Origin: Halomicrobium sp. LC1Hm
Lineage (GTDB): Archaea; Halobacteriota; Halobacteria; Halobacteriales; Haloarculaceae
NCBI RefSeq assembly: GCF_009617995.1
Contig: NZ_CP044130.1
Location: forward strand, 1-64,000
DNA: 64,000 bases
Direction of reading: 5' to 3'
Below, piece by piece: positions 34,686 to 57,448 of the stretch. The position numbers and the translations under genes were made by a program. Under the pieces are notes generated by a model. That model saw nothing but the letters and a program-made list of their open reading frames with translations, was not told the origin of the DNA and searched no databases. How positions within the stretch are numbered: the first letter of the stretch is position 1; the number at the start of each line of letters is the position of its first letter.

Positions 34686-35573
34686 CTAGTCACACAGCGT
34701 GTCCCAGAACTCGTCGAGACGGTGCAAGACCGGCCTGATGTCCGCGTAGCGGTCGGCGGGAGCGCGCTCCAGACAGCGGAGAATGACGTCTTCGAGCGCT
34801 CTCGGAACGCCGGGACGGATCTCCGCGGGTCGGGGCGGCTCCTCGTCGAGGGCACGCTCGGACGTGTTCCCGTACGGATGGCGGCCGGTAAAGAGCACGA
34901 AGAGGAGGATGCCGAACTGGAACACGTCGACGCGCTTTTGCTGGCGGCTCTGTACCCGTCGGGCGTGCTGTTCCGGGGCCGCGTACCGGGGCGTGTACTC
35001 GCCGATCGTGTCACTCGGCCCCAGGAGCGCGCTGGCGGTCCCCCAGTCGCCGATCTTCGGGACGTTCCAGCCGTCCTCGACGGTCCGAAACAGGACGTTC
35101 TGTGGCTTGATGTCGCAGTGAGCGACCCCGCGGTAGTGGGCTTCCTCGATGCCGCTGGCGATACACCGGGCGATCCAGAGCCCGTGACAGAGCGACTGGA
35201 CCCCGTCGCGCTCGATGAACTCCCCGAGGTGGCCACCGTCCATGTACTCCATCGCGATCCAGGGCTTTCCCTTGCTCTTCCCGTGATCGACCAGGCTGAC
35301 GACGTGGTCGTGGCCCTCGAACTCGGCCCAGTTCTCGGCCTCTTGGAGGATGCGCTCGATGCGGTCCGCCGTGTCGATCGTCCCCGAGGTGTCGGGCACC
35401 TTGACGGCGATCGCGGTGCCGTCCGAGAGCGAGTGCCGATACACCTCGCCGCTGGCCCCCGTCGCGATCCTATCTGCGAGCTTGAAAGACAGCACGTCGA
35501 GTTCCGCAGAGAGGTCGACCGAGATCGGCGACACGTCCGGGATCTGCTCCGGGACGGACTCACTCGCCGTCAT
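34686..35573 (-). CDS. Stand-alone Ser/Thr protein kinase (kinase 3)
   Basis: This 295-residue protein is essentially one kinase domain after a 25-residue N-terminus. The Gly loop is A-T-G-A-S-G-E-V, the beta3 lysine is in I-A-V-K-V-P, the hinge is P-W-I-A-M-E-Y-M-D-G-G, the catalytic loop is A-H-C-D-I-K-P-Q-N (HCD), the magnesium motif is D-W-G-T-A, and the segment ends Y-A-A-P-E-Q. It lacks the extra domain seen in most of its relatives. It overlaps the upstream zinc-ribbon membrane protein gene by 14 bp, so that protein may be its membrane anchor or input. Confidence 0.92.
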   Translation of the reverse strand: MTASESVPEQIPDVSPISVDLSAELDVLSFKLADRIATGASGEVYRHSLSDGTAIAVKVPDTSGTIDTADRIERILQEAENWAEFEGHDHVVSLVDHGKSKGKPWIAMEYMDGGHLGEFIERDGVQSLCHGLWIARCIASGIEEAHYRGVAHCDIKPQNVLFRTVEDGWNVPKIGDWGTASALLGPSDTIGEYTPRYAAPEQHARRVQSRQQKRVDVFQFGILLFVLFTGRHPYGNTSERALDEEPPRPAEIRPGVPRALEDVILRCLERAPADRYADIRPVLHRLDEFWDTLCD

Positions 35574-36149: not shown

Positions 36150-37190
36150 CTACAGCGACGGGACGAGCTGGGAGCGCGTCAGCAGCTCACAGAGCTGCTC
36201 GCCGTCGACGAGGCGGACCTGTTCGCTCATCCGTTCGACGCTCTCTCTGGCGTTCTCGGTGAAGCTCGAACTGGTGACGACGGCGACGGAGTCGGCGTCG
36301 AACTCGACGAACAGTCCGGCGGTCCGCTGGACCGTGCGCACCCCCACTTTGTTGCCTGGCTTGTACTGTTTGGCCTGGACCAGTTCGCGCGTGCCGTCGG
36401 CCTGGGCGATGACGTCGACGTTGTAGTCCTGGACGTACTTCGTGGTCCGGGCGTCGAACCCGCCCTCTCGCCAGAGATCCGCGATCAGCACCTCGAACTC
36501 GCGGTGTGAACAGGACAGCAGATCGTCGCTGGTCCACTCGCCGTCGGTGGCGGCGTTCAGGCGTTCGGCGACGGTGTCGATGCGGTCCGTGTCGCGCTCG
36601 GCGATCGCCTCGTCCAGTGTCCCCCCGAGAGTGGCCTCGGCGCGTCCGAGCTGTGGTTCGCCGACGGCCGACAGCGCGGCGAACAGCTGGTCGGCACGGC
36701 GGACCACGACGGCGGTGCGATACAGCTCGTGGCCGGCCGACCGGAGCGACGAGAGACCGCCGCTCAGATCGTCCGCGACGGCAGCGTCCCCGGCGTCTCG
36801 GAGTCGATCGACGGCCGTCGCGACCGGCGCACTGGGATAGCGCTCCTGGAGTTCGAACGCCAGCGCGGCGAACGCGAAGAGAGCGTCACAGTAGTCGAGA
36901 ACCGCGGCGCGCCGACGCGCTTCGATCGACTGGTCGTTGGCCACGTCGACGAGTCGTTCGGTGATCGCCTCGATGGGCAGTGAGAGAGACTCCTGCTCGG
37001 ACAACGTCTGTCCGCGTTCGATTGTCGAGCGAAAGCGTCGTTTGCGGCGCTCTCCGACGGTCTCGCGTGGCTCGGTATCGTCGAGCGCGGGTTCGAAAAA
37101 CTCCGTGAGGTCGAAGGCGGGCTCGACATCGGAGTGGGCAGCGTACTCAGCCGTCAGGGTCTCGACAGCCCTCGCAACCGAATCGAACAT
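36150..37190 (-). CDS. Mrr-like PD-(D/E)XK restriction endonuclease-fold protein
   Basis: This 346-residue protein has a helical N-terminal part (1-230) and a C-terminal Mrr-type domain: F-E-V-L-I-A-D-L-W..G-G-F-D-A, then Y-N-V-D-V-I-A with the catalytic Asp and the Q-A-K of V-Q-A-K-Q-Y near residue 280. The domain ends with the usual V-V-T-S-S-S-F-T and E-x-A-R pattern. Such proteins cleave modified or foreign DNA. No methylase is present. Its place inside the kinase island hints at a defence setting. Confidence 0.82.
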   Translation of the reverse strand: MFDSVARAVETLTAEYAAHSDVEPAFDLTEFFEPALDDTEPRETVGERRKRRFRSTIERGQTLSEQESLSLPIEAITERLVDVANDQSIEARRRAAVLDYCDALFAFAALAFELQERYPSAPVATAVDRLRDAGDAAVADDLSGGLSSLRSAGHELYRTAVVVRRADQLFAALSAVGEPQLGRAEATLGGTLDEAIAERDTDRIDTVAERLNAATDGEWTSDDLLSCSHREFEVLIADLWREGGFDARTTKYVQDYNVDVIAQADGTRELVQAKQYKPGNKVGVRTVQRTAGLFVEFDADSVAVVTSSSFTENARESVERMSEQVRLVDGEQLCELLTRSQLVPSL

Positions 37191-37326: not shown

Positions 37327-37764
37327 TCAGCTGTCCTCCAGCAGATCGAGAGTCTTCTGATCGCGGTCGCCGTCGTAGTACCGCTCCAGTGCCGTGGCGA
37401 ACGGCGTCGGATCGTCGGCGACCGTCTCGAACAGCGTCATGGACGACCGGAACTTCAGATCGTCCGGCGAGCCGAAGATGTCGTTCGCGGAGCGCCCTTC
37501 GAGGTCGTCGACGATCGCGGTACACTCGCGTAATCGGGCTCCGAGAGTGGGATGGCGCAGGTAGGCGTCGGCTTTCGCTCGCGAGGCGATGGCGAACCGC
37601 TGGGCCATCTCACTCCGGCCGAGCCCGGCGACCTGGGGAAACACGAACCACATCCAGTGGCTGCGTTTCTGGCCCGACCGGAGTTCCCGCTTGACCGTCC
37701 CGATGACCGACTCCTGTGCCTCGACGAAGCGCTGTAGGTCGTGAGGGTCCGCTGCACTGGGCAT
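37327..37764 (-). CDS. DUF1810-family protein
   Basis: This 145-residue protein is started at the ATG at 37764, where the family sequence begins (D-P-H-D-L-Q-R-F-V-E-A-Q). It has the family hallmarks H-W-M-W-F-V-F-P-Q-V-A-G-L-G, a Y-L-R-H-P-T-L-G-x-R-L helix, and a D-x-x-K-F-R-S-S-M-T-L-F segment. DUF1810 proteins are small, helical and of unknown activity; links to NAD or ADP-ribose metabolism have been proposed from gene context. It lies in the same orientation as the Mrr-like gene, 136 bp away. Confidence 0.85.
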   Translation of the reverse strand: MPSAADPHDLQRFVEAQESVIGTVKRELRSGQKRSHWMWFVFPQVAGLGRSEMAQRFAIASRAKADAYLRHPTLGARLRECTAIVDDLEGRSANDIFGSPDDLKFRSSMTLFETVADDPTPFATALERYYDGDRDQKTLDLLEDS

Positions 37765-37884
37765 CGAGTGCCCGTTCGACGCGCTGGCGCTTAGTTGCCC
37801 CGGCGTCACCGTCGAGACCCGTCGGTAACACGGCGGGGGCGCGCAGACTCAACAGTTTTGGCGCTGGCGTGCCGTCGTGGCCAC

Positions 37885-38721
37885 ATGGCAGGACTCGACT
37901 CGGAGATGGAGCGCCGTTTCGACAAGTCGATATCTGAGTTACAGGCCGAAGCCGACCAGTTCAAGACGCGGGCCCAGTCCGACCCGGCGGTCGTCGCCAC
38001 GTACCTGCCACGGCTGCGAAAGCTCCTGGAAGCCGCGGGCTACAGCCGCGACGAGATGATGGTCAGAGACGACGTGCAGCGGACGATACTGGCGATCGCG
38101 GACCAGCGGCCGGAGGCGCTCGCCGACGAGTACCCCGACCTGGTGGCGGCGTTCCTCGACACGCGCGAGACGAGAGTCCTGGCCCAGCGACTCCTGCACA
38201 ACTGCGCCGAGCTCTGGGCCGATGGCGTGACGCGCCAGGAGATCACGGATGGGCTCGACGTGGTGGAAGGCGAGATCGTCGATCAGCTCGCAGACATCGC
38301 GGAGCAGGTCGACGACGACGGCCGGGTGCCGGGCAACGGTGCCACGGCGATGGTGCTCAGCCAGCGGGTGGCCGACTTCGCTCACAGCGTCGCGGGCCGC
38401 CAGCAACTCGTCGTCGAGGCCGCCTCTGACGCGCTGTTCGACCTCGTCCGGTTCCACGCCAGCGAGAAAGGAGTCGACCCGATCGACGGAGCCGTCGATC
38501 TGCGATCTCGATACGAGACCGCCAGCGAGCCGTTCGTACGCGGCTTCTCCGATCGGGGGACGATCGAAGCGATGCGAGAGACCGAGGAGACCCAGACGAA
38601 GAACTACGTCCTCCGCTACGTGGTCGACGCACTGGTCGGCACGTCCCTGATCGTCAGCGTCGAGCGAAGCGAGGCCCGAATGTTACGGATCGAGGCGGTC
38701 CTCGCCGAGCGAGATCAGTGA
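37885..38721 (+). CDS. Helical protein of unknown function
   Basis: This 278-residue protein is started at the ATG at 37885. It is predicted to be almost wholly helical, with charged amphipathic segments and no membrane span or signal. It shows no catalytic motif I can name. Its 3' end overlaps the end of kinase 4 on the opposite strand by 7 bp. A HEAT-like or four-helix-bundle adaptor for a neighbouring kinase is possible. Confidence 0.6.
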   Translation: MAGLDSEMERRFDKSISELQAEADQFKTRAQSDPAVVATYLPRLRKLLEAAGYSRDEMMVRDDVQRTILAIADQRPEALADEYPDLVAAFLDTRETRVLAQRLLHNCAELWADGVTRQEITDGLDVVEGEIVDQLADIAEQVDDDGRVPGNGATAMVLSQRVADFAHSVAGRQQLVVEAASDALFDLVRFHASEKGVDPIDGAVDLRSRYETASEPFVRGFSDRGTIEAMRETEETQTKNYVLRYVVDALVGTSLIVSVERSEARMLRIEAVLAERDQ

Positions 38722-40325
38722 TCGGGGGCGTCCATCGCGGCGAGCACCGCCGCGAGAGACCGATCGTCGCACCTGGCGATCGCGTCGGCGAGTGACAGCT
38801 CGTCGGTTCCGGAGTCGATCCCGTCGATTGCCGCCGCGAGGTCTCGCTCGCTGCCCTCGGGGAACGCAGCCGGGTCGAACCAGCCGTCGGTCCGCAGGTC
38901 GCCGCTCCCCCCAGCGTCGTCCTCGGACGTATCGCCGTCCGTCTCGGGGCTGTCGTCCGCCGAAGACTCGCCGTCCTCGGAGCGTTCCTCTCTGATCTGC
39001 TCGACGCGCTCCCTGAAGCTCAGATCCTCGTCCTCGCTCTCGTCCGCTTCGGCGGTGTCCGTGTCGTCGTTCGAGGGTGATTCTCCGTCCTCGGAGCGTT
39101 CCTCCCTGATCTGCTCGACGCGCTCTCTGAAGCTCAGATTCTCGTCCTCTCCGCTCTCGTCCGCTTCGGCGGTGTCCGAGTCGTCGTCCGACGATGATTC
39201 GCCGTCCTCGGATCGCTCCTCTCTGATCTGTTCGACGCGCTCCCTGAAGGTCAGGTCCTCGTCGGGGTCGTCGGTGTCCGTGTCCGTCGCGTCGTCCTCG
39301 CTAGAGGCAACTTCGGTCGAATCGGCGTCCGTGGATGCGCTCTCTGCGGCGTCGACGCGGGGCGAGCGGTCGTCTGCCGAGAGGCGGTCGGCGACGATGG
39401 GAGGGAGCGCGCTATCCGTCCGGGCCGCCTGGAGTGCTTGCCTGAAGATCTGGATGGCGTCGTAGCGGTCGCGCTTGCTCGTTTCGAGGGCGGTCGAGAC
39501 GATGGCGTCGAGTGCCGGAGACACGTCGTCGCGGTGCGCGCTCGGCGGTGCTGGCGGATCACCGTACACGACGTCGTGCATGACGCTCATCCGGTTGCCG
39601 ACGTAGGGCGGGCGACCGGTGAGCAGCGCGTAGACCAGCGCTCCGACCTGGTACACGTCGGTCAGCATGTCCGGGTCGCCGAACTCGTCGGGTTCGAACT
39701 GCTCGGGTGCGGCGTAGGTGACCGAGAGTCCCTCCATCGTGCGGGTGTGTTCCGAGAGCGAGCGGGCGAGCCCCCAGTCGGCGATCTTCGGCACATCCCA
39801 GGCGTCGCCCGACGTGGTTCGAAACAGCACGTTCGACGGTTTGACGTCGAGGTGGGCGACCCCGTAGTTGTGGGCGAGTTCGATCCCGCGACAGACACAC
39901 TCGCCGACCCACAGGGCTTCGTCCAGTGCCAGCCCGTCGGTGCCGTCGAGGCGCTGGGCGAGGTCGCCGCCGTCCATGAACTCCATCGCGATCCAGGGCA
40001 GGCGCTCGCCGGTGTCGATCACGCCGACGACGTGCTCGGAGTCCGCCCACCGGCGCTTCTCGCGCTCGCGGCGGTCGACCAGCTCCCAGGTGCGGGCCTC
40101 TTCCAGGAACGTCTCGACCACGTCACCGGTCAGCGTTCCGGGGTCTGCGGGCTCCTTGAGAGCGATCCGATCGGGCGGCTCGTCGTCCGGGACGGCCGCC
40201 TCGTAGACGAGTGCCTGTCCACCGGCGTCGAGCGGGGACTTCGCGGCGTCGATCGTCCGGTAATCGAGGTCTCGACGCGGCGGACTCGCGACCGCCGAGC
40301 GGTCGGGAATCCGAGGATCAGTCAT
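38715..40325 (-). CDS. Ser/Thr protein kinase with acidic tandem repeats (kinase 4)
   Basis: This protein has 536 residues. The kinase domain (20-300) closely matches kinase 2: I-A-L-K-E-P, P-W-I-A-M-E-F-M-D-G-G, H-L-D-V-K-P-S-N, D-W-G-L-A, Y-A-A-P-E-Q-F. The C-terminal part has three near-identical 38-39-residue units, each with the core FRERVEQIREERSEDGES followed by an Asp/Ser/Glu-rich spacer. A final helical domain ends at A-M-D-A-P-D-H. The charged helix plus serine-rich spacer could be a docking or autophosphorylation array. It lies 56 bp after kinase 5 and is probably co-transcribed with it. Confidence 0.92.
   Translation of the reverse strand: MTDPRIPDRSAVASPPRRDLDYRTIDAAKSPLDAGGQALVYEAAVPDDEPPDRIALKEPADPGTLTGDVVETFLEEARTWELVDRREREKRRWADSEHVVGVIDTGERLPWIAMEFMDGGDLAQRLDGTDGLALDEALWVGECVCRGIELAHNYGVAHLDVKPSNVLFRTTSGDAWDVPKIADWGLARSLSEHTRTMEGLSVTYAAPEQFEPDEFGDPDMLTDVYQVGALVYALLTGRPPYVGNRMSVMHDVVYGDPPAPPSAHRDDVSPALDAIVSTALETSKRDRYDAIQIFRQALQAARTDSALPPIVADRLSADDRSPRVDAAESASTDADSTEVASSEDDATDTDTDDPDEDLTFRERVEQIREERSEDGESSSDDDSDTAEADESGEDENLSFRERVEQIREERSEDGESPSNDDTDTAEADESEDEDLSFRERVEQIREERSEDGESSADDSPETDGDTSEDDAGGSGDLRTDGWFDPAAFPEGSERDLAAAIDGIDSGTDELSLADAIARCDDRSLAAVLAAMDAPDH
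38955..39265 (-). repeat. In-frame tandem repeat, three units of 114-117 bp inside kinase 4
   Basis: The DNA encoding FRERVEQIREERSEDGES and the following acidic spacer recurs with period 114 then 117 bp. Identity between units is high at the nucleotide level, so the array is recent or kept alike by recombination. The unit number could vary between strains without shifting the frame. Confidence 0.85.
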
Positions 40326-40381: not shown

Positions 40382-43282
40382 CTACTCCTCGCCGAGCGCG
40401 GACACGACGCCGTCGTGCGTGGCGACGTACACCGTGCCCTCTGCCACTGCTGGCGACCCGTCGATGAGACTGCCGGCCCGGTAGTGCCACCGCTCGTCCC
40501 CCGTCGCGGCGTCCAGCGCGTACAGACACTCGTCCCAGCTCCCGACGAAGAGGGTGTCGTCGGCGACGACCGGCGCACTGTTGATCTGTCCCGTCGTGTC
40601 GTAGCGCCAGCGTTCGGTGCCACTGTCCGCGTCGATCGCGAGGACGTAGCCGTCGATACTGCCCGCGTACACGGTGTCACCACAGATCGCCGGTGCCGAC
40701 CGGCCGTTGCCACCGGCGTCGAACGTCCAGCGCTCGGTGCCCGTGTCGGCGTCGAGGGCCACGACGCACCCGTCGTTGGTGCCCGTATAGAGGACGCCGT
40801 CCGAGACCGCTGGCGTCGACATCGCCGGTCCGCCGGTGGGGTAGCGCCACAGGTGCTCGCCGGAGTCGGCATCCAGCGCGGCGAGGATGCCGGCCCCACT
40901 GGAGGCGTACACCGTCCCGTCGACGACAGTGGGGACCGCGCCGATCTTGCCGTCGGTCTCGACGGCCCACCGCTCGTCGCCCGTCGTGGCGTCCAGCGCG
41001 TAGACGTGCTTGTCGTAGCTGCCGACGTACACCGTCCCGTCGACCACTGCGGGCGCGGCGTCGACCATTCCGCCCGTTTCGACCGCCCAGCGAGTCTCTC
41101 CGGTCGCGGCGTCGAGCGCGTACACGTGCTTGTCGTGGCTGCCGACGTACACCGTCCCGTCGACGACCGTCGGCGGCGACTGGACCGGATTGTCGGTCTC
41201 GTAGCTCCACCGCGTCTCACCGGACGCCGTCGCCAGTGCGTAGACGGCCATATCGTCGCTCCCGACGTACAGCGTGTCGTCGACGACGGTCGGTCCACCC
41301 TTGATCGAATCGCCCGCCTGGAACGTCCAGCGTTCGGTGACGGGTGGCGTGGGACCGACCGCACTCTGTCGCGGGCCGGATCGCGACGCGCTCCCGTGGA
41401 GGGTCGGCCAGTCGCGGTCGTCGGCCGTCGGCCCCGAGCGGTCCGCACTCGTCGTTTCCGGCGCGGGGGGATCGGTCGTCGGAGTGGGGTCGCGGTCTGC
41501 CGTCGCGGGCTCGGTCGCGCTCTCCGAGTCGTCCGGCGTCGACTCCCACTCCCCAGCGATCCGCTCCAGGGCGCGACGGAGGTCGATCGTCGCCTCGTAC
41601 CGATCGGCCGGGTCCCGCGCCAGTGCGCGCTCGAACACGTCGTCGAGAGCGGCCGGCAACTCTGGACGGCGCTCGCTGGGCGGCCTGTGATCGGCGTCGA
41701 GGACGCGCTCGATGCGCTCTCGTTCCGGGGTCGCGGCGAAGTCGTCGACGAACGGATGCGTTCCGGTGAACAGCTCGTAGAGGACGATCCCGAGCTGGAA
41801 CTGGTCGGTCCGCTGGTCCGTCGTGCCCTGACCGTCCTGTTCGGGGGCGCAGTAGCCGGGCGTCGAGATGCCGACGGCGGCCCCCTGGCCCAGCAGCGAC
41901 CGGGAGAGCTCCCAGTCGGCGACTTTCGGAATCGGCCACCGGTCGGGCTCGCCGGAGGTAAACAGGACGTTCGACGGCTTCAGGTCGAGGTGGACGACGC
42001 CGCGGTGGTGGGCGTGCCAGACCGCGTCGACGAGTCGCTGTGCGGTCCAGAGCGACTGCTCGACCGTCGCGTCCTCGGCGACGGCGCGAAGGTCCGGTCC
42101 GTCGACGACCTCCGTGGCGATCCAGGGCACCGGCGCATCGCCGCGGAGCCAGGGGAGCGGGTCGTACCCCCAGTCGATCACCGAGACGACGTTCGGGTGG
42201 TCGTCGAGGCCGGCCCACTGCCGGGCCTCGTGATCGAACCCGTCGATCGTCTCCTCGGTCAGCGTCCCGTGTCGAGCGGGATGTTTCACGGCGATGTCGT
42301 CCGGCCCGTCCTCGCCGGGGCGACGGACCCGGTGGACGACCGTCGTCGCGGTGCGGCCGATGACGTCGTCGTGGCGCAGTGCGGACGGGTCGAGCGACAC
42401 CGACGGCGTCTCTCCTCCCTCGTCGAGATCTGGTTCGTGTGCAGAGTCCATGGTCGTGGTTCGTTGGTGTTGCTGGCGATTCGACGCAGCCTGAGCGGTC
42501 TCTTCGGCGGCTGCGCTCTCGACGGAGTCACCGTCGAGCACCGCAAGCGCCCGTTCGGCGGCTTCGCGTACGCGCTGGTCGTCGTCGTCGAGTGTGTCCT
42601 GCAGATCGTCGACGGCCGGTTCGATCGCAGTCGGTCGTTCGCTGGCGACGTTTTGCAACGCCTCGGCGGCCGCAGTGCGTGTCGCGGCTTTCTCCTCGTC
42701 GAGGAGTGTCAGAAGCGAGTCGACGACGGGGACGACCGATCCGGGATAGGCGCTCGCGACGTTTTTGAGCGCGATGGCACCGGCGGCACGCGCCGTGTCA
42801 CGCTCGTCGTTTCGCAGCGACCGGAGCTCCGCGACCAGCGGCTGGATCGATTCGGGATACTCCGCTGGCGTCACAGTGGCGCGTGTCGCGTTGCGCGCCT
42901 CATAAAGGAGCGTCCGGAGGTCGGGAACCGCCGGTCGGACCTCCTCGGGGTGTGCCTCCGCGACCGCAGCGAGTGCGAGGGCGGCGTTCCCACGTAAACC
43001 CGGATGGGTGTCAGTGAGACACTGTCTGAGACCATCCACGGCAGGAACGACGGCGTCTGGTCGGTCCCGAGCGACGGTCGCAAGTGCCAGAGCCGCCCCA
43101 GCGCGAACGTCTCCGCCGTCCAGAGGGGCCTCGGCCGATTCAGCGGGCGATGCAGGAGCCGTCGGTTGGGGATACTCCAGCAGTTCAGTGAGTTCCTCGA
43201 TCTCGTCTGCAGCGACAGTGTGGCGCTCGGAGTCGGCTTTGGACCGGAGACGAGACACCCGCTGCAATGCATCGACACGCAT
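40382..43282 (-). CDS. HEAT-kinase-PQQ three-part Ser/Thr kinase (kinase 5)
   Basis: This protein has 966 residues. HEAT/armadillo-like repeats cover 1-255. The kinase domain (about 300-585) has a beta3 lysine in I-A-V-K-H-P, H-L-D-L-K-P-S-N and Y-C-A-P-E-Q. PQQ-type propeller repeats (about 645-966) have cores such as G-T-V-Y-V-G-S-H-D-K-H-V-Y-A-L-D. The Gly loop is degenerate (G-R-T-A-T-T-V) and the magnesium motif reads D-W-E instead of D-W-G, so activity may be reduced or altered. It combines the accessory modules of kinases 1/7 and 2. It is the first gene of a pair with kinase 4. Confidence 0.92.
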   Translation of the reverse strand: MRVDALQRVSRLRSKADSERHTVAADEIEELTELLEYPQPTAPASPAESAEAPLDGGDVRAGAALALATVARDRPDAVVPAVDGLRQCLTDTHPGLRGNAALALAAVAEAHPEEVRPAVPDLRTLLYEARNATRATVTPAEYPESIQPLVAELRSLRNDERDTARAAGAIALKNVASAYPGSVVPVVDSLLTLLDEEKAATRTAAAEALQNVASERPTAIEPAVDDLQDTLDDDDQRVREAAERALAVLDGDSVESAAAEETAQAASNRQQHQRTTTMDSAHEPDLDEGGETPSVSLDPSALRHDDVIGRTATTVVHRVRRPGEDGPDDIAVKHPARHGTLTEETIDGFDHEARQWAGLDDHPNVVSVIDWGYDPLPWLRGDAPVPWIATEVVDGPDLRAVAEDATVEQSLWTAQRLVDAVWHAHHRGVVHLDLKPSNVLFTSGEPDRWPIPKVADWELSRSLLGQGAAVGISTPGYCAPEQDGQGTTDQRTDQFQLGIVLYELFTGTHPFVDDFAATPERERIERVLDADHRPPSERRPELPAALDDVFERALARDPADRYEATIDLRRALERIAGEWESTPDDSESATEPATADRDPTPTTDPPAPETTSADRSGPTADDRDWPTLHGSASRSGPRQSAVGPTPPVTERWTFQAGDSIKGGPTVVDDTLYVGSDDMAVYALATASGETRWSYETDNPVQSPPTVVDGTVYVGSHDKHVYALDAATGETRWAVETGGMVDAAPAVVDGTVYVGSYDKHVYALDATTGDERWAVETDGKIGAVPTVVDGTVYASSGAGILAALDADSGEHLWRYPTGGPAMSTPAVSDGVLYTGTNDGCVVALDADTGTERWTFDAGGNGRSAPAICGDTVYAGSIDGYVLAIDADSGTERWRYDTTGQINSAPVVADDTLFVGSWDECLYALDAATGDERWHYRAGSLIDGSPAVAEGTVYVATHDGVVSALGEE

Positions 43283-43723: not shown

Positions 43724-43740
43724 GTCTCCAAAGTGGAGAC
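43724..43740. promoter_or_regulatory. Perfect 17-bp palindrome in a divergent promoter
   Basis: GTCTCCA-AAG-TGGAGAC has 7-bp arms and a 3-bp spacer. It lies between the TATA box of the leftward membrane gene (43690) and that of the rightward HTH-kinase gene (GCTATTACTT, 43821-43830). Kinase 6 carries its own winged HTH and is the obvious candidate to bind here. A single arm, TTGGAGAC, recurs just after the TATA at 53491. Confidence 0.6.
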
Positions 43741-43852
43741 AAGTGAGACCAGAACCGCGACGAACCACCGTCGGAAGACGCGCGTCGAAACGCCGGAGCG
43801 ATCTCGAACACTCGGGACAAGCTATTACTTTTGGCACGCGGATGGTGTGATA

Positions 43853-45319
43853 ATGACGGATTCCGAGGAAGAGGAGACGCCGACGCTCACGGAGATATTC
43901 GAAACGGTCGAGAGCGAGGCCGAGCTCACCGGGCGGAATCTGACCGTGCTCCGAACCGTCCTCGAACGGGAGCCCGCGGGGATCACCGATCTCGCCGAAG
44001 TGCTTGACCACCCCCACCACGAGCTCCGATACTCGCTGCGAGTGCTGGAAGAGGAGAACCTCATCGAGCCGACGGCGGAGGGCGCGGTGACGACCGGTGA
44101 CGTCGTCGGGTCGATCGAAGCTGCAAACGCCGGACTGGAGGAGCTTCAGTCCGGACTCCGGGCGTGTGCAGCGGCATTCGGGTCGGACGAGGGACAGTCG
44201 AGCGAGGCGACGGAAGCGGATGCCCTCGAAGGAGAGAGACGGACGGAAGGGACAGCGGGCCGGGAAACAGAGCAGGCGGAAGGACAGCAAACGACCGACG
44301 CGTCGCCGGGCGAAGCGAGCAGCGAGTCGGCGTCGACGGCCGAGACGGCGTCTGCGACCGAGACGGAATCGGCGGCCGAGAACACCGATGAGACCGAATC
44401 GACGGCGGCCACCGAGGCGTCGGCCGACGCGCAGTCCTCTACTGCGACGACGGTCGAGACGGCCTCGAAAGTGCCCGACGTGGCGAGCGTGCAGAGTCCG
44501 GCCCGAGAGGAGCTGGCGTACGCCGATTTCGAGATCGAGGAGCAACTCGGACACGGGGGCAGCGGCGTCGTTCACGAGGCACAGTACCGCGTCGACGGTG
44601 AGCCGACGACGGTCGCCCTGAAGGTGCCGAACTTCGAGGGGACGATCACGTCGTCGGTGATCGAGGACTTCGAGCAGGAGGCGGAGACGTGGTCGTTGCT
44701 GTCGCCCCGGGACCACGTCGTCGGCGTCGTCGACAGCGGGACACAGCCCAAGCCCTGGATCGCCATGGAGTACATGGACGGCGGCACGCTGCGCGAGCGG
44801 CTCTCGGAGTTTTCCATCGAGCAGGCCGTCTGGACGTGCGAACGGATCGCGCAGGGAGTTCGCCACGACCAGACCGGCGTCCTCCACCTGGATCTCAAGC
44901 CCGAGAACGTCCTGTTTCGCCGGACCGGCGAGGGGAGCTGGGACGTGCCGAAGATCGCCGACTGGGGGCTGGCACGCACGCTCAAAGAACACCAGCCGAC
45001 CGTCGAGGGCATGTCGCCGACCTACGCCGCCCCCGAGCAGTTCGACGCCGAGGAGTTCGGCGACCCCAGCAGCAAGACGGACATCTACCAGCTCGGCGTC
45101 CTCATGTACGAGGTACTGACCGGCCGGCCGCCCTTCGAGGGCAACAGCGTCGCGCTGATGAACGCGATCCTCACCGAGGAGCCCGAGCCACCGGCGGCGG
45201 TCGACGATCGCGTCCCGCAGGCCGTCAGCGACGCCGTGATGAAGGCGCTGCGAAAGGAGCCAGCGGAGCGGTTCAGTACCGTCGAGCGCCTCCAGTCCCA
45301 GCTCCGGGCACAGCTCTGA
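43853..45319 (+). CDS. Winged-HTH Ser/Thr protein kinase (kinase 6)
   Basis: This protein has 488 residues. The ATG at 43853 follows a TATA-like GCTATTACTT by about 25 bp. The N-terminal winged helix-turn-helix (residues 10-85) has a recognition region D-L-A-E-V-L-D-H-P-H-H-E-L-R-Y-S-L. A low-complexity Glu/Thr/Ala/Ser linker (105-215) follows. The kinase domain (220-488) has a complete Gly loop G-H-G-G-S-G-V-V, V-A-L-K-V-P, P-W-I-A-M-E-Y-M-D-G-G, H-L-D-L-K-P-E-N, D-W-G-L-A, Y-A-A-P-E-Q-F. A kinase fused to a DNA-binding domain could phosphorylate in response to a signal and act on its own promoter. The gene converges on kinase 7 with one base between stop codons. Confidence 0.92.
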   Translation: MTDSEEEETPTLTEIFETVESEAELTGRNLTVLRTVLEREPAGITDLAEVLDHPHHELRYSLRVLEEENLIEPTAEGAVTTGDVVGSIEAANAGLEELQSGLRACAAAFGSDEGQSSEATEADALEGERRTEGTAGRETEQAEGQQTTDASPGEASSESASTAETASATETESAAENTDETESTAATEASADAQSSTATTVETASKVPDVASVQSPAREELAYADFEIEEQLGHGGSGVVHEAQYRVDGEPTTVALKVPNFEGTITSSVIEDFEQEAETWSLLSPRDHVVGVVDSGTQPKPWIAMEYMDGGTLRERLSEFSIEQAVWTCERIAQGVRHDQTGVLHLDLKPENVLFRRTGEGSWDVPKIADWGLARTLKEHQPTVEGMSPTYAAPEQFDAEEFGDPSSKTDIYQLGVLMYEVLTGRPPFEGNSVALMNAILTEEPEPPAAVDDRVPQAVSDAVMKALRKEPAERFSTVERLQSQLRAQL

Positions 45320-45320
45320 G

Positions 45321-48143
45321 CTACAGCTCGTCGAGGTGGGCCTGCAGCCGCGACTGCAACCGTTCGATCGTCTCGAAGCGGTGCTCTGGCTCCCTGGCGA
45401 GGGCCGTCTCGACGGTGTCGTCGATCCCGGCGGGGAGAGCGTCGACTCGCTCGCCCGGCAGTTCGGGGTCCTCGGACAGAACGCTCTGCATCACGGCCAC
45501 GTCGGAACCGGTGAAGGGAGGCTCCCCGACGAGGAGTTCGTAGAGGACGACCCCGAGCTGGTAGATGTCCGTCTTGCTGTCGGGCGTCCCGTAGGTGTCG
45601 GGATCGAACTGTTCCGGTGCCGCGTACGTCGCGGTCATCCCGCCGGCAGTCGCGCCGTGCTCGTTCAGCAGTCGGGCGATTCCCCAGTCGGCGACCTTCG
45701 GCACGTCCCAGACGCCCTCGGGCGTCGCCTCGAAGAGGATGTTCGCGGGTTTGAGATCGAGGTGTGCCATCCCGGTCTGGTCGTGTCGGACCGCGTTCGC
45801 GACGCGCTCACAGATCCACAGCGCCTGGCGGTCGTCACACGCGCCGATCCTGTCCGCCAGCGATCCCCCGTCCATGTACTCCAGTGCGATCCAGGGGAGG
45901 GGCTCGACGTCCCAGTCGATGACGGCGACGACGTGAGCCCGATCCGAGAGTCGCTCCCACTGCCGCGCCTCGCGCTCGAAGGCGGCGATGTCGTCGGCCG
46001 TCTGTGTCCCCTCCGTGACGGGCTCTTTGACGGCGACCGTCCGCGACGCCCCGTCGATCTCGACTGTCCCCTCCCGGACGATCGCGTTGCCGCCACGGCC
46101 GACGACTCGACCGGTCTCCACGTCGCCGTAGTCCAGCGACAGCGACGGGGCCTGCGTCGGCTGGCCGGTCGGTATCGCCGTCGAAGCGGACTCGCTGGTG
46201 GTCTCCGACTGCTCGTCGCGGACCCGGTGATCGGTCGCCTCGGACCGTGCCCCCGCCGGGCGCTCCGAACCGGAGGCCGCGTCGGCCGGCGACTCCGCAT
46301 CCCGCTCGGTCGAACTGCCAGGATCGTAGTCGAGCGCCGCGAGTGCCGCCTGGGCGGCCGCCCGCACGTCGTCGTCGTAGTGCGTGCGGAGTGGCGCGAT
46401 CTGCTCGGCCGCCGACGCCGCGCCGAGCGCCGCGAGCGCCCCGCAGGCTTCGACGCGGGGACTGGGGTAGTAGTCGTCGAGCAGGTCGACGAGCGGATCG
46501 CGCGCGGCGCGGAGCTCGCGACCCCCCTCGGCGAACGCGCCGATCGCCTCGGCCGCGGCCGCCCTGACCATTGCGCTTACGTGTCCCAGCCGAGTGACGA
46601 CCGACGAGACGTGATCGTCGGTCACCGCGTCGGGATGGGCCTCGCCGATCTGGCCGAGCGCCTGGAGCCCTCGTTGTTCGACGAGTGGGTCGCCGTCGTC
46701 GACGGTCGCGAGAACGGCGGGGAGCACGGCGTCGGCCAGTTCGCGATCGGCCGCGCCGATCCGTCCGAGGGCGTCGACGGCGTCCGCCCGGACCGATTCC
46801 TCCGCGTCGTCGAGGAGATCGAGGAGGGGAGCCGTCCCGGCCGAGACGGCCGCTCCCGTGGCGTGCTGGTCGACCAGCGGTCGAACGGCCGCTGGGCGTT
46901 CGCCGCCGAGTCGACCGATGGCAGAGGCCGCACTCGATCTGGTGGCCCAGGACTGGTGGTCGAGGTGGTCGACCATCCCGTCCAGCCCGTCGACGACCAG
47001 GTCCGGGCAGTGCTCGGCCAGCCGGCCCAGCTCGCCAAGCACCGTGCTCTTCTCGAAGTCCGGTGCCGACGACAGCGCCGAGAGGTGCGCGCGTGTCGCG
47101 CGCTCGGCTGCCTCGGCCAGTCGAGCCTCCAGCGGGGCGAGGGCGGTCACGGCCTTTCGTCGTATCTTCGAGTCGGAATCGTCGGCGGCGGCCACGAGGT
47201 CGTCGGCGACGCGTTCGAGGACGGCCGGCTCCGTCTCGCCGAGCGTCCCGAACAGGTCGATCGCCCCCTTCCTGACCATCGACTCGTCATCCGTCAGGAG
47301 CAGTGTGAGCCGGTCTACGTGGGGATCGAGGAGCGCCGGTCGGTCCTCGGCGATCGTCTCGACCGCGCTGACGACGTGCCAGCGAGACGCCTCGGAGACC
47401 GCGCTCTCGACGCCGCTTTGCATCGTCGCCTCGACCAGCGGCTCGACCAGCGACGCCCCCGAGTCCGAGCGGCAGGTCACGAGGTTCCGCACGCCGTACA
47501 CCACCCCCTTGTTCGGGAGCGCGCCGCGGTCGAGTTCGCGCTCGAACCGTTCCACGACCTGCGCGCGCACCTGCTCGTCTTTGCCCGCGATCGTCCCCAG
47601 CGCCTTCCCGGCGGCTTCACAGAGCAGTCCGAGATCGTCCTCGGTCGGTTCCAGACAGTCGAGCAGCGTCGGGACCGTGTCCCGGACTTGCTGGGGAAAG
47701 AGGTCGTAGATCGCGGCGAGTGCTGCCGCCCGCTTCGAGCGGGCGAGCTCCTCGTTGTCGGTGTCGGCCAGCGTTCGGTGGTACTGACCGACGGGATCGG
47801 CCCGCGCGACCGGCGTCCGGTCGAACGCTGGCTCTGCCGCCGCGACTCGTGTGCGATCGAACTCCGCGATCGCGGCCACCAGCGTCGGACGGCTGATCCG
47901 GTCGGTGTGGACGACCGCGTCGATCAGCGGCTGGACCAGCGATGCCACTGCCCCTGGGTCCCGTGCCGCTGCCTCCCTGGCCAGTTGCGCCGTGACGTGG
48001 ACGACGCCGTGGTTGTCCGACAGCAGCAGCTCCTCGATGCGCGACCGGTCGTCCTCGGTGTACGCGGCCGGGTCGTCGGGCAGCGTCGCGAGGAACGCGC
48101 GAGCCTCGTCGAGGTGGACCTCGCCCTCGTCGGTGTCGCTCAC
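45321..48143 (-). CDS. HEAT-repeat Ser/Thr protein kinase (kinase 7)
   Basis: This protein has 940 residues: about 610 residues of HEAT/armadillo-like repeats, a variable Ser/Glu-rich linker, and a C-terminal kinase domain (about 665-940). The domain has Gly loop G-R-G-G-N-A-I-V, V-A-V-K-E-P, P-W-I-A-L-E-Y-M-D-G-G, H-L-D-L-K-P-A-N, D-W-G-I-A and Y-A-A-P-E-Q-F. The layout matches kinase 1 with a longer repeat array. It lies 48 bp downstream of kinase 8, on the same strand, and both are probably one transcript. Confidence 0.92.
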   Translation of the reverse strand: MSDTDEGEVHLDEARAFLATLPDDPAAYTEDDRSRIEELLLSDNHGVVHVTAQLAREAAARDPGAVASLVQPLIDAVVHTDRISRPTLVAAIAEFDRTRVAAAEPAFDRTPVARADPVGQYHRTLADTDNEELARSKRAAALAAIYDLFPQQVRDTVPTLLDCLEPTEDDLGLLCEAAGKALGTIAGKDEQVRAQVVERFERELDRGALPNKGVVYGVRNLVTCRSDSGASLVEPLVEATMQSGVESAVSEASRWHVVSAVETIAEDRPALLDPHVDRLTLLLTDDESMVRKGAIDLFGTLGETEPAVLERVADDLVAAADDSDSKIRRKAVTALAPLEARLAEAAERATRAHLSALSSAPDFEKSTVLGELGRLAEHCPDLVVDGLDGMVDHLDHQSWATRSSAASAIGRLGGERPAAVRPLVDQHATGAAVSAGTAPLLDLLDDAEESVRADAVDALGRIGAADRELADAVLPAVLATVDDGDPLVEQRGLQALGQIGEAHPDAVTDDHVSSVVTRLGHVSAMVRAAAAEAIGAFAEGGRELRAARDPLVDLLDDYYPSPRVEACGALAALGAASAAEQIAPLRTHYDDDVRAAAQAALAALDYDPGSSTERDAESPADAASGSERPAGARSEATDHRVRDEQSETTSESASTAIPTGQPTQAPSLSLDYGDVETGRVVGRGGNAIVREGTVEIDGASRTVAVKEPVTEGTQTADDIAAFEREARQWERLSDRAHVVAVIDWDVEPLPWIALEYMDGGSLADRIGACDDRQALWICERVANAVRHDQTGMAHLDLKPANILFEATPEGVWDVPKVADWGIARLLNEHGATAGGMTATYAAPEQFDPDTYGTPDSKTDIYQLGVVLYELLVGEPPFTGSDVAVMQSVLSEDPELPGERVDALPAGIDDTVETALAREPEHRFETIERLQSRLQAHLDEL

Positions 48144-48191: not shown

Positions 48192-50657
48192 TCACTCCTC
48201 GGTGACATCGATCACCCCGCCGACGCCGACCGTCTGTCCCATGTCCCGGATCGAGAACACGCCCAGTTCGGGCACGTCGGTGATCGGTTCGACGCTGAGT
48301 GGCTTCTGGGGTTCCAGGACCACCTCGGCGGTGTCGCCGTTCTGGATGAAGTCCGGGCGCTCCTCGATGACACGTCCGTCGTCGGGATCGACCGTGGCCT
48401 CGATACTGTCGATGGTACAGGCGACCTGTGCGGTGTGTGCGTGGACGACCGGCGTGTACCCCGCCGTGACGACGCTCGGATGGTCGGTGACGACGATACG
48501 GGCCCGGAGCCGATCAGCGACCGGCGGCGCACCGTCGAGCGGACCACAGACAGCACCTCTGCGAACCTCGCCCTGCTCGGTCCCACCGACCTGGAAGGCG
48601 ACTGTCTCACCCGGACCCGCTTGCGCGATCGCCTCGTGGTTCTGCTCGATCGTCTCGACCGCGCCCGCTACGTCGGCCGGACGGAGCCAAACGTCGTCGC
48701 CGCCTTCGAGCGTTCCCGCCACGACATCGCCAGTCAACACGGTCCCGGCGTCCGAGAGCGTGTACGCGTCCTGAATCGGGAGCCGAAGCGTGGCGCTCTC
48801 GGCCGCCGGAACCGTCGCGTCCTCGAACTGGGCCGCCAGCCGCTCGACGTGGTCCTGTGGAGCGAACGCACAGTCGGTCAGTCGGTCAACGAGATCGTCC
48901 TCGGGCGTCGACGCTGGCCGCGCTGCGGACTCGACAGCGGTCACAGCGCCGATCGCGACAACCTGGCCGGCGTCGCGAACGGTGAACCAGCCCGTTTCCG
49001 GAGCCTCGTCGATCGGATCGACGGCGAACGGCCGCTGGGGAGAGAGCGACGCCTGAACGATGTCGCCCGGTTCGGCGTAGTCGGGCGTCCGCTCGATTTC
49101 CCACGTACCGTGGTCGCCTACGGGCATCACCCGCCGTGTGAGCCCCGTGATCGACGCCGCGACCTGACCGGTGTGGGTGTGGACGACCGGCGTGTACCCC
49201 GCCGTGATGACGCTCGGATGGTCGAGAACGTACAGCTCCGCCTCGAACGAGTCGACTGCCTTGGGGGCCGAGCTCCGACGAGAGCCGAGAGCGCCCCGTC
49301 GGATGTCGTCTCTGTCAGTGGCGGCGTCCGGAACGAGCGTGACCGAATCACCCGCCGTCGCCGTCTCGATCGCAGTGCCAGAGAGCCCCGCTTCCATCGT
49401 CCCGACAGACAGTTCCGCACCGCCCGGCTCGAAGACGAGACGATCGTCTCTCGACAGCGTTCCCGAGGCCACTGCGGCGGAAACGTGAGTCTCGCCGTCG
49501 ACGGAGAACGTATCGCTGACCGCCAGACGGAGCGGATCGTCTGCCGGCTCGCCGTCGATCTCGCGCTCCGCAGTGTCGAGGAGCAACGCGGCGTCCGACG
49601 CGTCGACGCCGTCGATGTCGTCGATGCCCTCGTACAGCGTTGTAGGACGGTCCCGGTCGGCACCGGACGCCTCGGCGTGGCGCTCTGTTGAGGGCGGCGT
49701 GGCCGCCTCGGCGTGCTGTGACTCGACCGTCTCCGATGTATCGCCGGTCGCCCCAGCCGTCCGATCGGACTCTTCGACGATCGTTTCGAGCACCGACGCC
49801 AGATCTCGGCGGAAGTTGACGACCGTCTCGTACCGTTCTGACTTCTCGGTGGCGAGCGCACGGGCGAAGATCTCGTCGAGGGCGTCGTGGAGGTGGGGGT
49901 CGACGGACGTGGGTGGCGTCACGTCGCCGTCGGTGACCCGACGCATGGCCGCCATCCCCGAACCGGGGAAGGCCCGTTTCCCGGTCAGGGCCTCGTAGAC
50001 GACTGTCGCGAGCTGGAACCGGTCCGTGAAGTCGTCCGGCTTACCGAACGCCTCGGGATCGAACTGCTCGGGGGCGGCGTAGTTCGGGGTCAGCCCGTCG
50101 ACCGTCTCGGACTGCTCTAACAGCGACTCGGAGAGTCCCCAGTCGCCGATCTTGGGGAGATCCCACACCCCGTCGGACGTGGCCCGGAAGAGCACGTTAT
50201 CGGGAGTCAAATCGAGGTGGACGATGCCGTGACGGTGGGCGTGCTGGAGAGCACGGCTGAGACAGACGCCGGTCCAGAGGGCCTGTGCCGTGTCCATCCT
50301 ACCGGCCTCCAGTCGGTCTGCGAGCGTGTCGCCGTCCATGTACTCCAGCGCGATCCACGGGAGACGATCACCCCAGTCGACGACGCTGACGACGTGTGCG
50401 TGGTCGTCCAGCTGTGACCACGTCTCTGCCTCGTCGACGAACTCCGCCATCGTGTCCGTCTCGACGGTGCCATCGACGATCGGTTCCTTGACCACGAACT
50501 GCCGTCCGTCGACGGTGACGGCGGACACCCTGGCGAACCCACCAGAGCCGATCCGTTCCCCGCCCTGGATGTCGTCGTAGTCGAGGGCGCAAACGTCGGG
50601 TCCATCGTACGACGAGGGATCCGGCACGGCGTCGATATCTTCGAAGTCAGCAGCCAT
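48192..50657 (-). CDS. Ser/Thr protein kinase fused to two copies of aEF1A domains II-III (kinase 8)
   Basis: This protein has 821 residues from the ATG at 50657. The kinase domain (30-290) has G-S-G-G-F-A-R-V, V-V-K57-E-P, H147-L-D149-L-T-P-D-N (Thr replaces the usual catalytic-loop Lys), D172-W-G and Y-A-A-P-E-Q-F. After a linker come two tandem copies (about 380-580 and 624-821) of the beta-barrel domains II and III of archaeal elongation factor 1A. Copy 2 is very close to EF1A itself, with L-R-L-P-I-Q-D-A-Y-T, H-P-S-V-V-T-A-G-Y-T-P-V and R-D-M-G-Q-T-V; copy 1 is more diverged. No GTPase domain (no GHVDHGK) is present. It could bind ribosomes, aminoacyl-tRNA or EF1A partners and pass a translation-state signal to the kinase. 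The call is firm; the role is inference. Confidence 0.9.
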   Translation of the reverse strand: MAADFEDIDAVPDPSSYDGPDVCALDYDDIQGGERIGSGGFARVSAVTVDGRQFVVKEPIVDGTVETDTMAEFVDEAETWSQLDDHAHVVSVVDWGDRLPWIALEYMDGDTLADRLEAGRMDTAQALWTGVCLSRALQHAHRHGIVHLDLTPDNVLFRATSDGVWDLPKIGDWGLSESLLEQSETVDGLTPNYAAPEQFDPEAFGKPDDFTDRFQLATVVYEALTGKRAFPGSGMAAMRRVTDGDVTPPTSVDPHLHDALDEIFARALATEKSERYETVVNFRRDLASVLETIVEESDRTAGATGDTSETVESQHAEAATPPSTERHAEASGADRDRPTTLYEGIDDIDGVDASDAALLLDTAEREIDGEPADDPLRLAVSDTFSVDGETHVSAAVASGTLSRDDRLVFEPGGAELSVGTMEAGLSGTAIETATAGDSVTLVPDAATDRDDIRRGALGSRRSSAPKAVDSFEAELYVLDHPSVITAGYTPVVHTHTGQVAASITGLTRRVMPVGDHGTWEIERTPDYAEPGDIVQASLSPQRPFAVDPIDEAPETGWFTVRDAGQVVAIGAVTAVESAARPASTPEDDLVDRLTDCAFAPQDHVERLAAQFEDATVPAAESATLRLPIQDAYTLSDAGTVLTGDVVAGTLEGGDDVWLRPADVAGAVETIEQNHEAIAQAGPGETVAFQVGGTEQGEVRRGAVCGPLDGAPPVADRLRARIVVTDHPSVVTAGYTPVVHAHTAQVACTIDSIEATVDPDDGRVIEERPDFIQNGDTAEVVLEPQKPLSVEPITDVPELGVFSIRDMGQTVGVGGVIDVTEE

Positions 50658-50812
50658 GGTCGGAGTGACCAGTGGACGGATGTTAAAACTAGAACTCTCC
50701 GCGAAGCACAAGAGTTGAGACGCTGGCCCGGAAACAGTGGCGACGACAGAATGGTCCAAACGTCGTGCGGAACAGGCCTCGTCGGAACCGCCGGCTTCCA
50801 AGGGAGCGCGCG

Positions 50813-51955
50813 ATGACGGACGACGAGCCGCCGCGGTTCGTGACGACGACAGAGCAGTTCTCGGCGGACTTCGGGACGACGACGGTCGAGTCCGAGCCGG
50901 TGCTCGTCCACAGCCTGGCGGGCGAAGGCGGCCGGGCGGTCGTCGGGGTCTACTCGACCGAGATCCACGAGGGCGAGTGTCACCTGGCGGTCGGGATCGA
51001 CGAGACAGTCCCACGGAAGACAGCCGAGCCACAGAGCCCAGACACCGCAGCGAACGACGACCCCGACGCCGAAACGACGGTCGCCAGACCCGCCGAGAAG
51101 GTGCCCGAGCCGGTCGGGCCGCCGCTGCCCGAGTCGGTCACCTACAGCGAGCTGACGATCGGCGAGCGCGTCGGTGACGGCGGCTTCGCAGAGGTCAGGG
51201 CGGCGACGGTCGAATCGTCCCCGGACGCGGAGCTCGCGGTCAAGCGCCTGACCGACGAGGGGACGCTGGCCAGAGCGACGATCGACCGGTTCGTCGAAGC
51301 GGCGAAGCTGTGGGCCCAATGTGGCGACCACCGCCACGTCGTCAGCGTCGTCGACTGGGGGAAGGTACCCCGGCCCTGGATCGCGATGGAGCGCCTGACC
51401 GGCGGCGACCTGCGCCAGCGCCTCCGCGACGCCGACGACGGGCTCGCGGTCGACGAGGGGCTGTGGATCGCGAGCATGCTGGCCGAGACCCTCGCCGACG
51501 TACACCACCTCGGCGTCCGGCACTTCGATCTCCGGGCCCGAAACGTCCTCTTCGCCTCGACGACCGACGAAGCGTGGGACCTCCCCAAGATCGGCGACTG
51601 GGGCGTCGCGAAGACACAGCGCAGCGGCGACGATCCGACGGCGCTCGATCCCCGCTACGCCGCCCCCGAGCAGTTCGAGTCCGACCGCGAACTCGACCAC
51701 CGGACAGACATCTACCAGCTCGGGACGGTGCTCTACGAACTGCTGACCGGACGGGTGCCGACGGCGACGGGAGCCGAGGGCGAGTCGGTCGCCGAGCGGT
51801 CGCTGCCGACGCCGCCGTCGGAACTGCGCCCCGAACTGCCGTCGTCGGTCGACGAGGTCGTCCAGGCCGCGCTCGCACCGGCCCCCTCGGAGCGGTACAG
51901 TCGGGCGATCTACCTCGCCGACGCGCTGGACGATCTCGTCGACGACACACCGTAA
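50813..51955 (+). CDS. Ser/Thr protein kinase with unknown N-terminal domain (kinase 9)
   Basis: The protein has 380 residues when started at the ATG at 50813. Residues 1-75 form a small beta-rich segment of unknown type (V-L-V-H-S-L-A-G-E-G-G-R-A-V-V-G-V), then an acidic linker. The kinase domain (105-380) has Gly loop G-D-G-G-F-A-E-V, L-A-V-K-R, P-W-I-A-M-E-R-L-T-G-G, a changed catalytic loop H-F-D-L-R-A-R-N (Lys to Arg), D-W-G-V-A and Y-A-A-P-E-Q-F. It is divergent from kinase 8 across a 155-bp spacer with a reverse-strand TATA (TAGTTTTAAC). Activity may be weak given the Lys change. Confidence 0.9.
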   Translation: MTDDEPPRFVTTTEQFSADFGTTTVESEPVLVHSLAGEGGRAVVGVYSTEIHEGECHLAVGIDETVPRKTAEPQSPDTAANDDPDAETTVARPAEKVPEPVGPPLPESVTYSELTIGERVGDGGFAEVRAATVESSPDAELAVKRLTDEGTLARATIDRFVEAAKLWAQCGDHRHVVSVVDWGKVPRPWIAMERLTGGDLRQRLRDADDGLAVDEGLWIASMLAETLADVHHLGVRHFDLRARNVLFASTTDEAWDLPKIGDWGVAKTQRSGDDPTALDPRYAAPEQFESDRELDHRTDIYQLGTVLYELLTGRVPTATGAEGESVAERSLPTPPSELRPELPSSVDEVVQAALAPAPSERYSRAIYLADALDDLVDDTP

Positions 51956-56342: not shown

Positions 56343-57065
56343 CTACGCCGTTTCGGTCCGACAGAGACCGACGGTGACGTTGTCCGGTCCGCCTCGATCG
56401 TTGGCTTCCCGGATCAGATCCGTCCCCGCGGCTTCGAGCGACGTGGCGTCGAGACAGGTCGCCTCGATAGTGTCCTCCGGAACGGGGTCGGTGAGCCCGT
56501 CCGTACAGAGCAGGAGCCAGCCCGCCGAGATCGACTGTGTGTACAGGTCGACGTCGAGGTCGTCGGCGGTCCCGATCGCTTGGGACAGCACGTGACTCAT
56601 CGGGTGGTTCGAGGCCTCTTCTGGCGTGATCTCGCCCGCCTCGACGAGTTCCTGGACCTGCGATTGGTCGGTGGTTACCTGCTGGAGTTCGTCGTCGACG
56701 TAGTAGGCGCGGCTATCACCGACGTTGGCGATCGTCGCGGTGTCGTCCGCGACGAGTGCAGCGACGAGCGTCGTCCCCGGCGTCTTGCGCTCGCCCGCCG
56801 CGAGGTCGGTCACGGCGTCGTGTGCGGCCCGGAAGCCGCGTTCGAGCAAGTCCGCCGGCCGGTCGGCATCCTCAGGCGTCTCCGACGTGACCGTTTCGAA
56901 CAGTCGCTCGACGGCCGTTGCACTCGCTTCGGCACCCTTCGAGTGGCCTCCCATGCCGTCGGCGACGACGACGAGTTCGCGCCCGTCGTCGAGCGACGCA
57001 CAGCGAGACGCATCCTCGTTTTCGGAACGCTGCTGGCCGACGTTGCTGTGACAGTAAGAGATCAT
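56343..57065 (-). CDS. PP2C-family Ser/Thr protein phosphatase
   Basis: This protein has 240 residues from the ATG at 57065. All PP2C metal-site motifs are present: S-E-N-E-D-A (residues 14-19), V-A-D-G-M-G-G-H (35-41), G-T-T near 95, N-V-G-D-S-R-A-Y near 115, C-T-D-G-L-T-D near 180, and G-G-P-D-N-V-T-V near 225. It is the only protein phosphatase seen in the window and lies at the right end of the nine-kinase cluster. It is the natural candidate to reverse their phosphorylation. Confidence 0.95.
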   Translation of the reverse strand: MISYCHSNVGQQRSENEDASRCASLDDGRELVVVADGMGGHSKGAEASATAVERLFETVTSETPEDADRPADLLERGFRAAHDAVTDLAAGERKTPGTTLVAALVADDTATIANVGDSRAYYVDDELQQVTTDQSQVQELVEAGEITPEEASNHPMSHVLSQAIGTADDLDVDLYTQSISAGWLLLCTDGLTDPVPEDTIEATCLDATSLEAAGTDLIREANDRGGPDNVTVGLCRTETA

Positions 57066-57202
57066 AGTTGGGCTGCGACGAACGGATCGTGACCGACCGG
57101 TTATCACGCATCGCAGATAACTGTACTGCCGGGCGAGGGGGCGACTGTTTGCTGGTCGGGCCATCGCATCGGTTTTCACCCTGCTGGACCGACACCGAGA
57201 CG

Positions 57203-57448
57203 GTGGCGGACACGACAGTGACGGTGTACACCCGAGAGGAGTGTCACCTCTGTGACGACGCACTTCAGATGATACGGACGGTGACTCAGTCGGTGGCTCG
57301 ATCGGTCGACATCGAAGTCGTCGACATCGACGAGGCGTCGCTGGGCGAGGAGTACGGCGATCGCGTCCCCTACGTGCTCGTCGACGGCCGACCGGCGTTC
57401 AAGTTCCGCGTCGACGAACGGGAGCTACGACAGAAGCTGGTGGCCTGA
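57203..57448 (+). CDS. Glutaredoxin-like thioredoxin-fold protein
   Basis: This protein has 81 residues from a GTG at 57203, the first start that fits the fold; a longer ATG-less extension is unlikely. The active site C-H-L-C follows beta strand 1 (V-T-V-Y-T-R-E-E). The cis-Pro loop is R-V-P-Y-V, with D-G near residue 62. The family (NrdH/DUF836-like) reduces disulfides with glutathione or other small thiols. It is divergent from the PP2C gene. Confidence 0.85.
   Translation: MADTTVTVYTREECHLCDDALQMIRTVTQSVARSVDIEVVDIDEASLGEEYGDRVPYVLVDGRPAFKFRVDERELRQKLVA

Follow-up and report, generated by a model that had tools for sequence, protein, structure and literature searches.

A single gene on a plasmid of Halomicrobium was found to encode a Hanks-type protein kinase joined to two tandem copies of domains II and III of elongation factor 1A (EF1A). 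Judging from the residues kept and lost, the paired barrels may be a protein-binding look-alike of EF1A, either a bait or a dock, that controls the attached kinase; this is the explanation we favour, and it is put forward tentatively. The window, meaning the whole stretch of DNA analysed, is the first 64 kb (64,000 nucleotides) of a 223,917-base plasmid contig, in a genome with a chromosome of 3.1 Mb. Among named sequences, the nearest relative was plasmid pHmuk01 of Halomicrobium mukohataei (91% over 61% of the region compared).

Architecture and relatives of the kinase-EF1A gene

The kinase-EF1A ORF runs on the minus strand from an ATG at 50657 to a stop at 48192 (48192..50657, 821 aa), the extent given in the initial annotation, and the plan proposed there, a kinase with two tandem EF1A II-III copies and no GTPase, was borne out by Pfam, NCBIfam and alignments to solved EF1A structures. 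The kinase domain, delimited by Pfam and motifs, occupies residues 25–292 (49782..50585, minus strand). It matched Pkinase at residues 33–269 (2.2e-26) and contained a G-rich loop at 37, K57, HLDL at 147–150, N154, DWG at 172 and APE at 195. By motif, it is thus apparently a complete Hanks-type Ser/Thr kinase with all catalytic residues. An acidic Ser/Thr-rich linker, recognized by its composition (residues 293–371, 28% D+E; 49545..49781, minus strand), is followed by copy 1 of the EF1A domains (residues 372–577; 48927..49544, minus strand) and then by copy 2 (residues 617–821; 48195..48809, minus strand). The Pfam families GTP-eEF1A_C (2.5e-52) and GTP_EFTU_D3 (4.5e-40) each matched in two stretches, and GTP_EFTU_D2 at residues 638–704 (4.2e-8) was the sole domain II match above the Pfam cut-off. 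The NCBIfam model EF-1_alpha (TIGR00483) was also matched in two stretches, the best of which covered model positions 225–424, corresponding to domains II-III only. The GTPase domain was absent, with no GTPase match in Pfam and the EF1A model positions before ~220 missing in NCBIfam.

Copy 2 (617–818) aligned to solved archaeal EF1A with almost no gaps (about 1e-52), and copy 1, searched alone (residues 369–577), gave a full-length alignment to solved EF1A (1.7e-29). Identity to the host EF1A (C1:2789286) was 38% for the diverged copy 1 and 57% for copy 2, and the two copies were 38% identical to each other. The closeness of copy 2 to haloarchaeal EF1A that had been noted earlier therefore held: its identity was 56–59% to haloarchaeal EF1As compared to 44–53% to other EF1As in the phylum sample, making the haloarchaeal proteins its closest relatives. 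Homology to EF1A and EF-Tu extends over domains II and III, including HPSVxTAGYTPV and RDxGxT. An AlphaFold model of copy 2 from a poor, two-row alignment had a mean pLDDT of 59.7 with domain III blocks mostly at 72–93, and was usable mainly for domain III. The best solved match to this low-confidence model was archaeal EF1A (3.1e-15), in agreement with an EF1A II/III fold. Residues 350–821 modelled without an alignment reached a pLDDT of 33.

An orthologue with the same kinase-barrels-barrels plan, EFA46_RS15155, was found on plasmid pCBA1220-02 of Halarchaeum sp. CBA1220. The two proteins were 50% identical overall, and their kinase domains formed a clade with support of 100/99 in a tree of 28 island kinases. 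On pHmuk01, the flanking DNA was ~91% identical and the gene had shrunk to a 30-codon in-frame ORF, MVANFENIEARRFVGVAVLTVDGVIDVTEE, made up of the first and last codons of the gene together with a piece matching codons 39–51 (the kinase glycine loop). The same 30-codon remnant was present at the same site in a second genome of the genus (G167). Two of the three island-bearing Halomicrobium genomes thus have the gene only in decayed form while keeping the rest of the island, and the gene is dispensable. Together, the intact orthologue and the remnants indicate that the gene belonged to the ancestral stock of the island and was lost in the relative, rather than being a chimera or a recent insertion. 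The initial annotation had named a chimera of two genes as the finding that would overturn it. We give an assembly chimera practically no credence: nothing was found in its favour, the Halarchaeum orthologue is independent, the remnants in two other genomes carry both gene ends and the P-loop piece, and GC3 and acidity are uniform along the whole ORF.

No full-length relative was found among 392 genomes sampled from the order, 146 from the family and 391 from the class (overlapping sets), or among 26 from one other family. Since only a few candidates are scored in each genome and the Halarchaeum genome itself was missed, the gene is likely rare, to a degree that is uncertain. A first scan of sampled genome contigs also gave no relative, and a scan with a kinase peptide that proved too common matched at least 80 bacterial kinases. 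In viral contigs, scans with host EF1A, copy 2 and the kinase turned up no relative of EF1A, and kinase matches were limited to four weak ones. Extra EF1A genes occur on other haloarchaeal plasmids; the three cases checked were full GTPases with no adjoining kinases.

Residue conservation in the EF1A barrels

Four barrel copies were compared, namely copies 1 and 2 of the Halomicrobium and Halarchaeum proteins, against a reference set of 91 positions that were at least 95% invariant among 59 EF1A sequences. Copy 2 of either species kept 63 of the 91 invariants, and the two copies 1 kept 45 and 49. All four retained the domain III invariants better than those of domain II (37/45 compared to 26/46 in copy 2), which may be plain fold constraint. 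In the tree with EF1A, the copies had very long branches. D324 and V337 were common to all four, which suggests, at the level of shared residues, that they derive from one founding module. It is distinctly improbable that the barrels are only spacers or oligomerisation domains in a decaying gene. The strong divergence of copy 1 and the loss of the gene from two of three island-bearing Halomicrobium genomes would suit such a neutral fusion, whereas the retention of both copies and of most domain III invariants in two genera, at ~50% protein identity, argues against it.

The EF-Tu residues that form the aminoacyl-tRNA and switch II pocket were defined from published work (PMC4236685, PMC4329189). 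The pocket set comprised the aminoacyl and A76 pockets, the 5' phosphate contact and the switch II contacts, transferred to EF1A by an alignment of our own. Invariants lost in all four copies accounted for 6 of 12 pocket positions compared to 10 of 79 elsewhere (Fisher one-sided, 0.006). Against the other domain II positions alone, the figures were 6/12 and 5/34 (p 0.02); for copy 2 of the window protein alone, the difference was not significant (p 0.11). As the four copies are related and the positions partly dependent, the statistic reflects a small number of independent events and is taken as supporting evidence, not proof. Pocket residues lost in all four copies included H272, N284, G286 and N288, among others. 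The EF1A invariants R290 and K354 were likewise lost in every copy, and Q324, which we take to lie at the T-stem-facing edge of EF1A domain III, was replaced by Asp in all four. Some residues that contact the tRNA end persisted: E270 of the A76 pocket in all four copies, and V239 and the 5' phosphate contact R299 in three each.

These losses bear on the earlier suggestion that the protein senses translation state. A canonical sensor of charged tRNA is disfavoured because both the G domain and the charged-tRNA pocket have been lost, and that version is weakened by the preferential loss of aminoacyl and switch pocket residues in every copy. There is another version, in which the barrels would bind tRNA that is uncharged, or tRNA regardless of charging, or the ribosome, and switch the kinase on when translation falters. 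It has a logical parallel in Gcn2, a kinase regulated by a HisRS-related domain (PMC4335047), and could draw on the retained E270, V239 and R299. We nevertheless consider it unlikely, given the absent G-domain tRNA contacts, the degraded aminoacyl pocket, the missing R290 and K354 and the Asp at position 324. The domain III face, by contrast, is retained, which speaks for a protein-binding look-alike of EF1A. Of the functions first proposed for the barrels, acting as a decoy and recruiting partners are candidates that fit better than charged-tRNA sensing.

The Thr equivalent to EF-Tu T382 was kept in three of the four copies, including both copies 2 (T809 in the window protein). In EF-Tu, phosphorylation of this residue by Doc locks the protein in an open form and halts translation; the corresponding site of eEF1A2 undergoes AMPylation by a eukaryotic Fic enzyme (PMC5851678). 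The barrels might serve to direct the kinase to translation complexes, so that it phosphorylates EF1A or a partner (aEF1B, Pelota, aRF1 or synthetases) and stops growth, a role that is possible though rather unlikely. The outcome would be of the HipA or Doc kind, phosphorylation of EF-Tu being a block to translation in many bacteria (PMC8807479, PMC5851678), and EF1A partners could bind barrels that descend from EF1A. However, barrels that copy the substrate would act as competitors of EF1A instead of recruiting it, and evidence for the substrate in archaea was not found in the literature searched.

The plasmid island and comparable systems

The window contains nine kinases between 26 and 52 kb, the kinase-EF1A protein included; the modules attached to the others are HEAT repeats, PQQ beta-propellers or a winged helix, and some have none. 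These others are of the same kinase type as the kinase-EF1A protein; for island kinases with HEAT or PQQ modules the identity is 34–50%. From the left edge of the island, they are a HEAT kinase (26040..28574, plus strand), a kinase-PQQ beta-propeller protein (32251..34632, minus), a stand-alone kinase (34686..35573, minus) that formed a clade with Halarchaeum RS15200 in the tree, a kinase whose ~230 C-terminal residues matched no Pfam family (38715..40325, minus), a HEAT-kinase-PQQ beta-propeller protein (40382..43282, minus) and an HTH-kinase (43733..45319, plus), in which the winged-helix match HVO_A0114 fell just under the cut-off. The next gene downstream of kinase-EF1A encodes a HEAT-repeat kinase (45321..48143, minus), and its divergent upstream neighbour another kinase (50765..51955, plus), the domain of which grouped with Halarchaeum RS15145 in the tree. 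A PP2C phosphatase gene, the counterpart of HMUK_RS15880, was also present (56343..57263, minus; ORF extent, the gene being probably shorter at its 5' end), as was a Mrr-type restriction endonuclease (36150..37190, minus). More such kinases occur further along the plasmid, among them a related one with winged-helix and 2Fe-2S ferredoxin domains that is perhaps redox-sensing (C2:80156-82297, plus strand).

The island also encodes a truncated thermosome-like protein (37795..38718, plus strand) that matched only ~residues 372–520 of chaperonins, the C-terminal half, with the N-terminal half missing. EF1A stripped of its GTPase is a parallel case. Of 392 sampled genomes, only three yielded this chaperonin half, and the plasmids on which it was found were those of Halomicrobium and Halarchaeum alone. 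In Halarchaeum, a HEAT kinase and a PP2C gene adjoin the kinase-EF1A gene, with a kinase, a Mrr-type nuclease and the chaperonin half nearby.

Several further genes were noted in and around the island. A small retropepsin-like aspartyl protease gene (25658-26035, plus strand) lies immediately 5' of the first HEAT kinase, and a UvrD-like helicase weakly similar to GajB of Gabija (18571-21999, minus) neighbours a gene with a phage-integrase SAM-like domain (24127-25371). The interval separating the Mrr nuclease from the chaperonin half holds a TnpB gene in pHmuk01 (L137 38614-39831) and a DUF1810 gene in the window (37327-37809). On pHmuk01, a Fic-family gene, HMUK_RS15950 (L137 41594-42148), stands beside the Mrr nuclease and is missing at that place in the window. 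A link between this gene and the T382 site was considered and dropped, as the gene is absent at that spot from both the window island and G167; the four Fic genes of the window genome are all chromosomal.

It is common for kinases to have their regulatory domains swapped. In PADLOC, the kinase domain resembled PD-T4-6 (1.5e-38) and mad6 (6e-33), but every island kinase scored alike against PD-T4-6, no C-terminal module is shared with PD-T4-6 or MAD6, and the similarity is generic to Hanks kinases. The curated NCBIfam scores were missed for both MAD6 (84.5 against a cut-off of 460 bits) and BREX PglW (73.4 against 990 bits). The layout of the island recalls that of described conflict systems, among them the bacterial conflict system 4, in which EF-Tu domains are among the variable C-terminal modules behind caspases, with EACC1 (PMC7159879). 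Both that system and the island join a constant enzyme to a swapped C-terminal module. The constant part here, however, is a Hanks kinase with no caspase or cyclase N-terminus, carried on a haloarchaeal plasmid, and no EACC1 partner was identified for the kinase-EF1A gene. Gcn2 likewise pairs a kinase with a domain that stems from a translation protein, but the kinase group and the translation module differ, and neither Pfam nor NCBIfam gave a HisRS-like domain in the kinase-EF1A protein. The initial annotation knew of no described kinase with this plan. A kinase with doubled EF1A II-III domains is indeed undescribed as far as our literature search reached, with the qualification that EF-Tu modules behind caspases are a reported precedent (PMC7159879).

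Proposed function and significance

Compared to EF1A and EF-Tu, the kinase-EF1A protein lacks the G domain, has its barrels duplicated and attached to a kinase, and has lost aminoacyl and switch pocket residues. If the barrels are an EF1A look-alike, as we favour, the module would have given up the GTP hydrolysis and charged-tRNA binding of EF1A and kept the domain III face. By imitating EF1A, the barrels would be bound by proteins aimed at its barrel face, either an invader's EF1A-modifying or EF1A-binding protein or a host EF1A partner, and this contact would determine how active the attached kinase is. The kinase might then pass the signal on through PP2C and the kinases encoded nearby, as part of a stress or defence response, with slower growth as the probable outcome. 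Besides the pocket losses and the better-kept domain III, we count in favour of this model the complete catalytic motifs, the retained T382 equivalent, the layout of the island and the resemblance to PD-T4-6 and mad6; the dispensability of the gene weighs against it.

It is plausible from its gene content that the island is a defence system, on the basis of kinases accompanied by a phosphatase, a nuclease, module swapping, plasmid location and similarity to defence kinases. A more specific proposal, which we hold to be quite unlikely, is that the island forms an undescribed archaeal immune or surveillance system, based on kinases, whose stripped EF1A and thermosome copies are integrated decoys that trip a kinase cascade upon attack by an invader.

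To our knowledge, little is known of the targets and inputs of archaeal Hanks kinases. The kinase-EF1A fusion physically ties protein phosphorylation to the translation machinery in archaea. If the barrels bind tRNA, the protein would be a convergent Gcn2. If they serve as bait, it would provide an archaeal example of the integrated-decoy principle familiar from the immune systems of plants.
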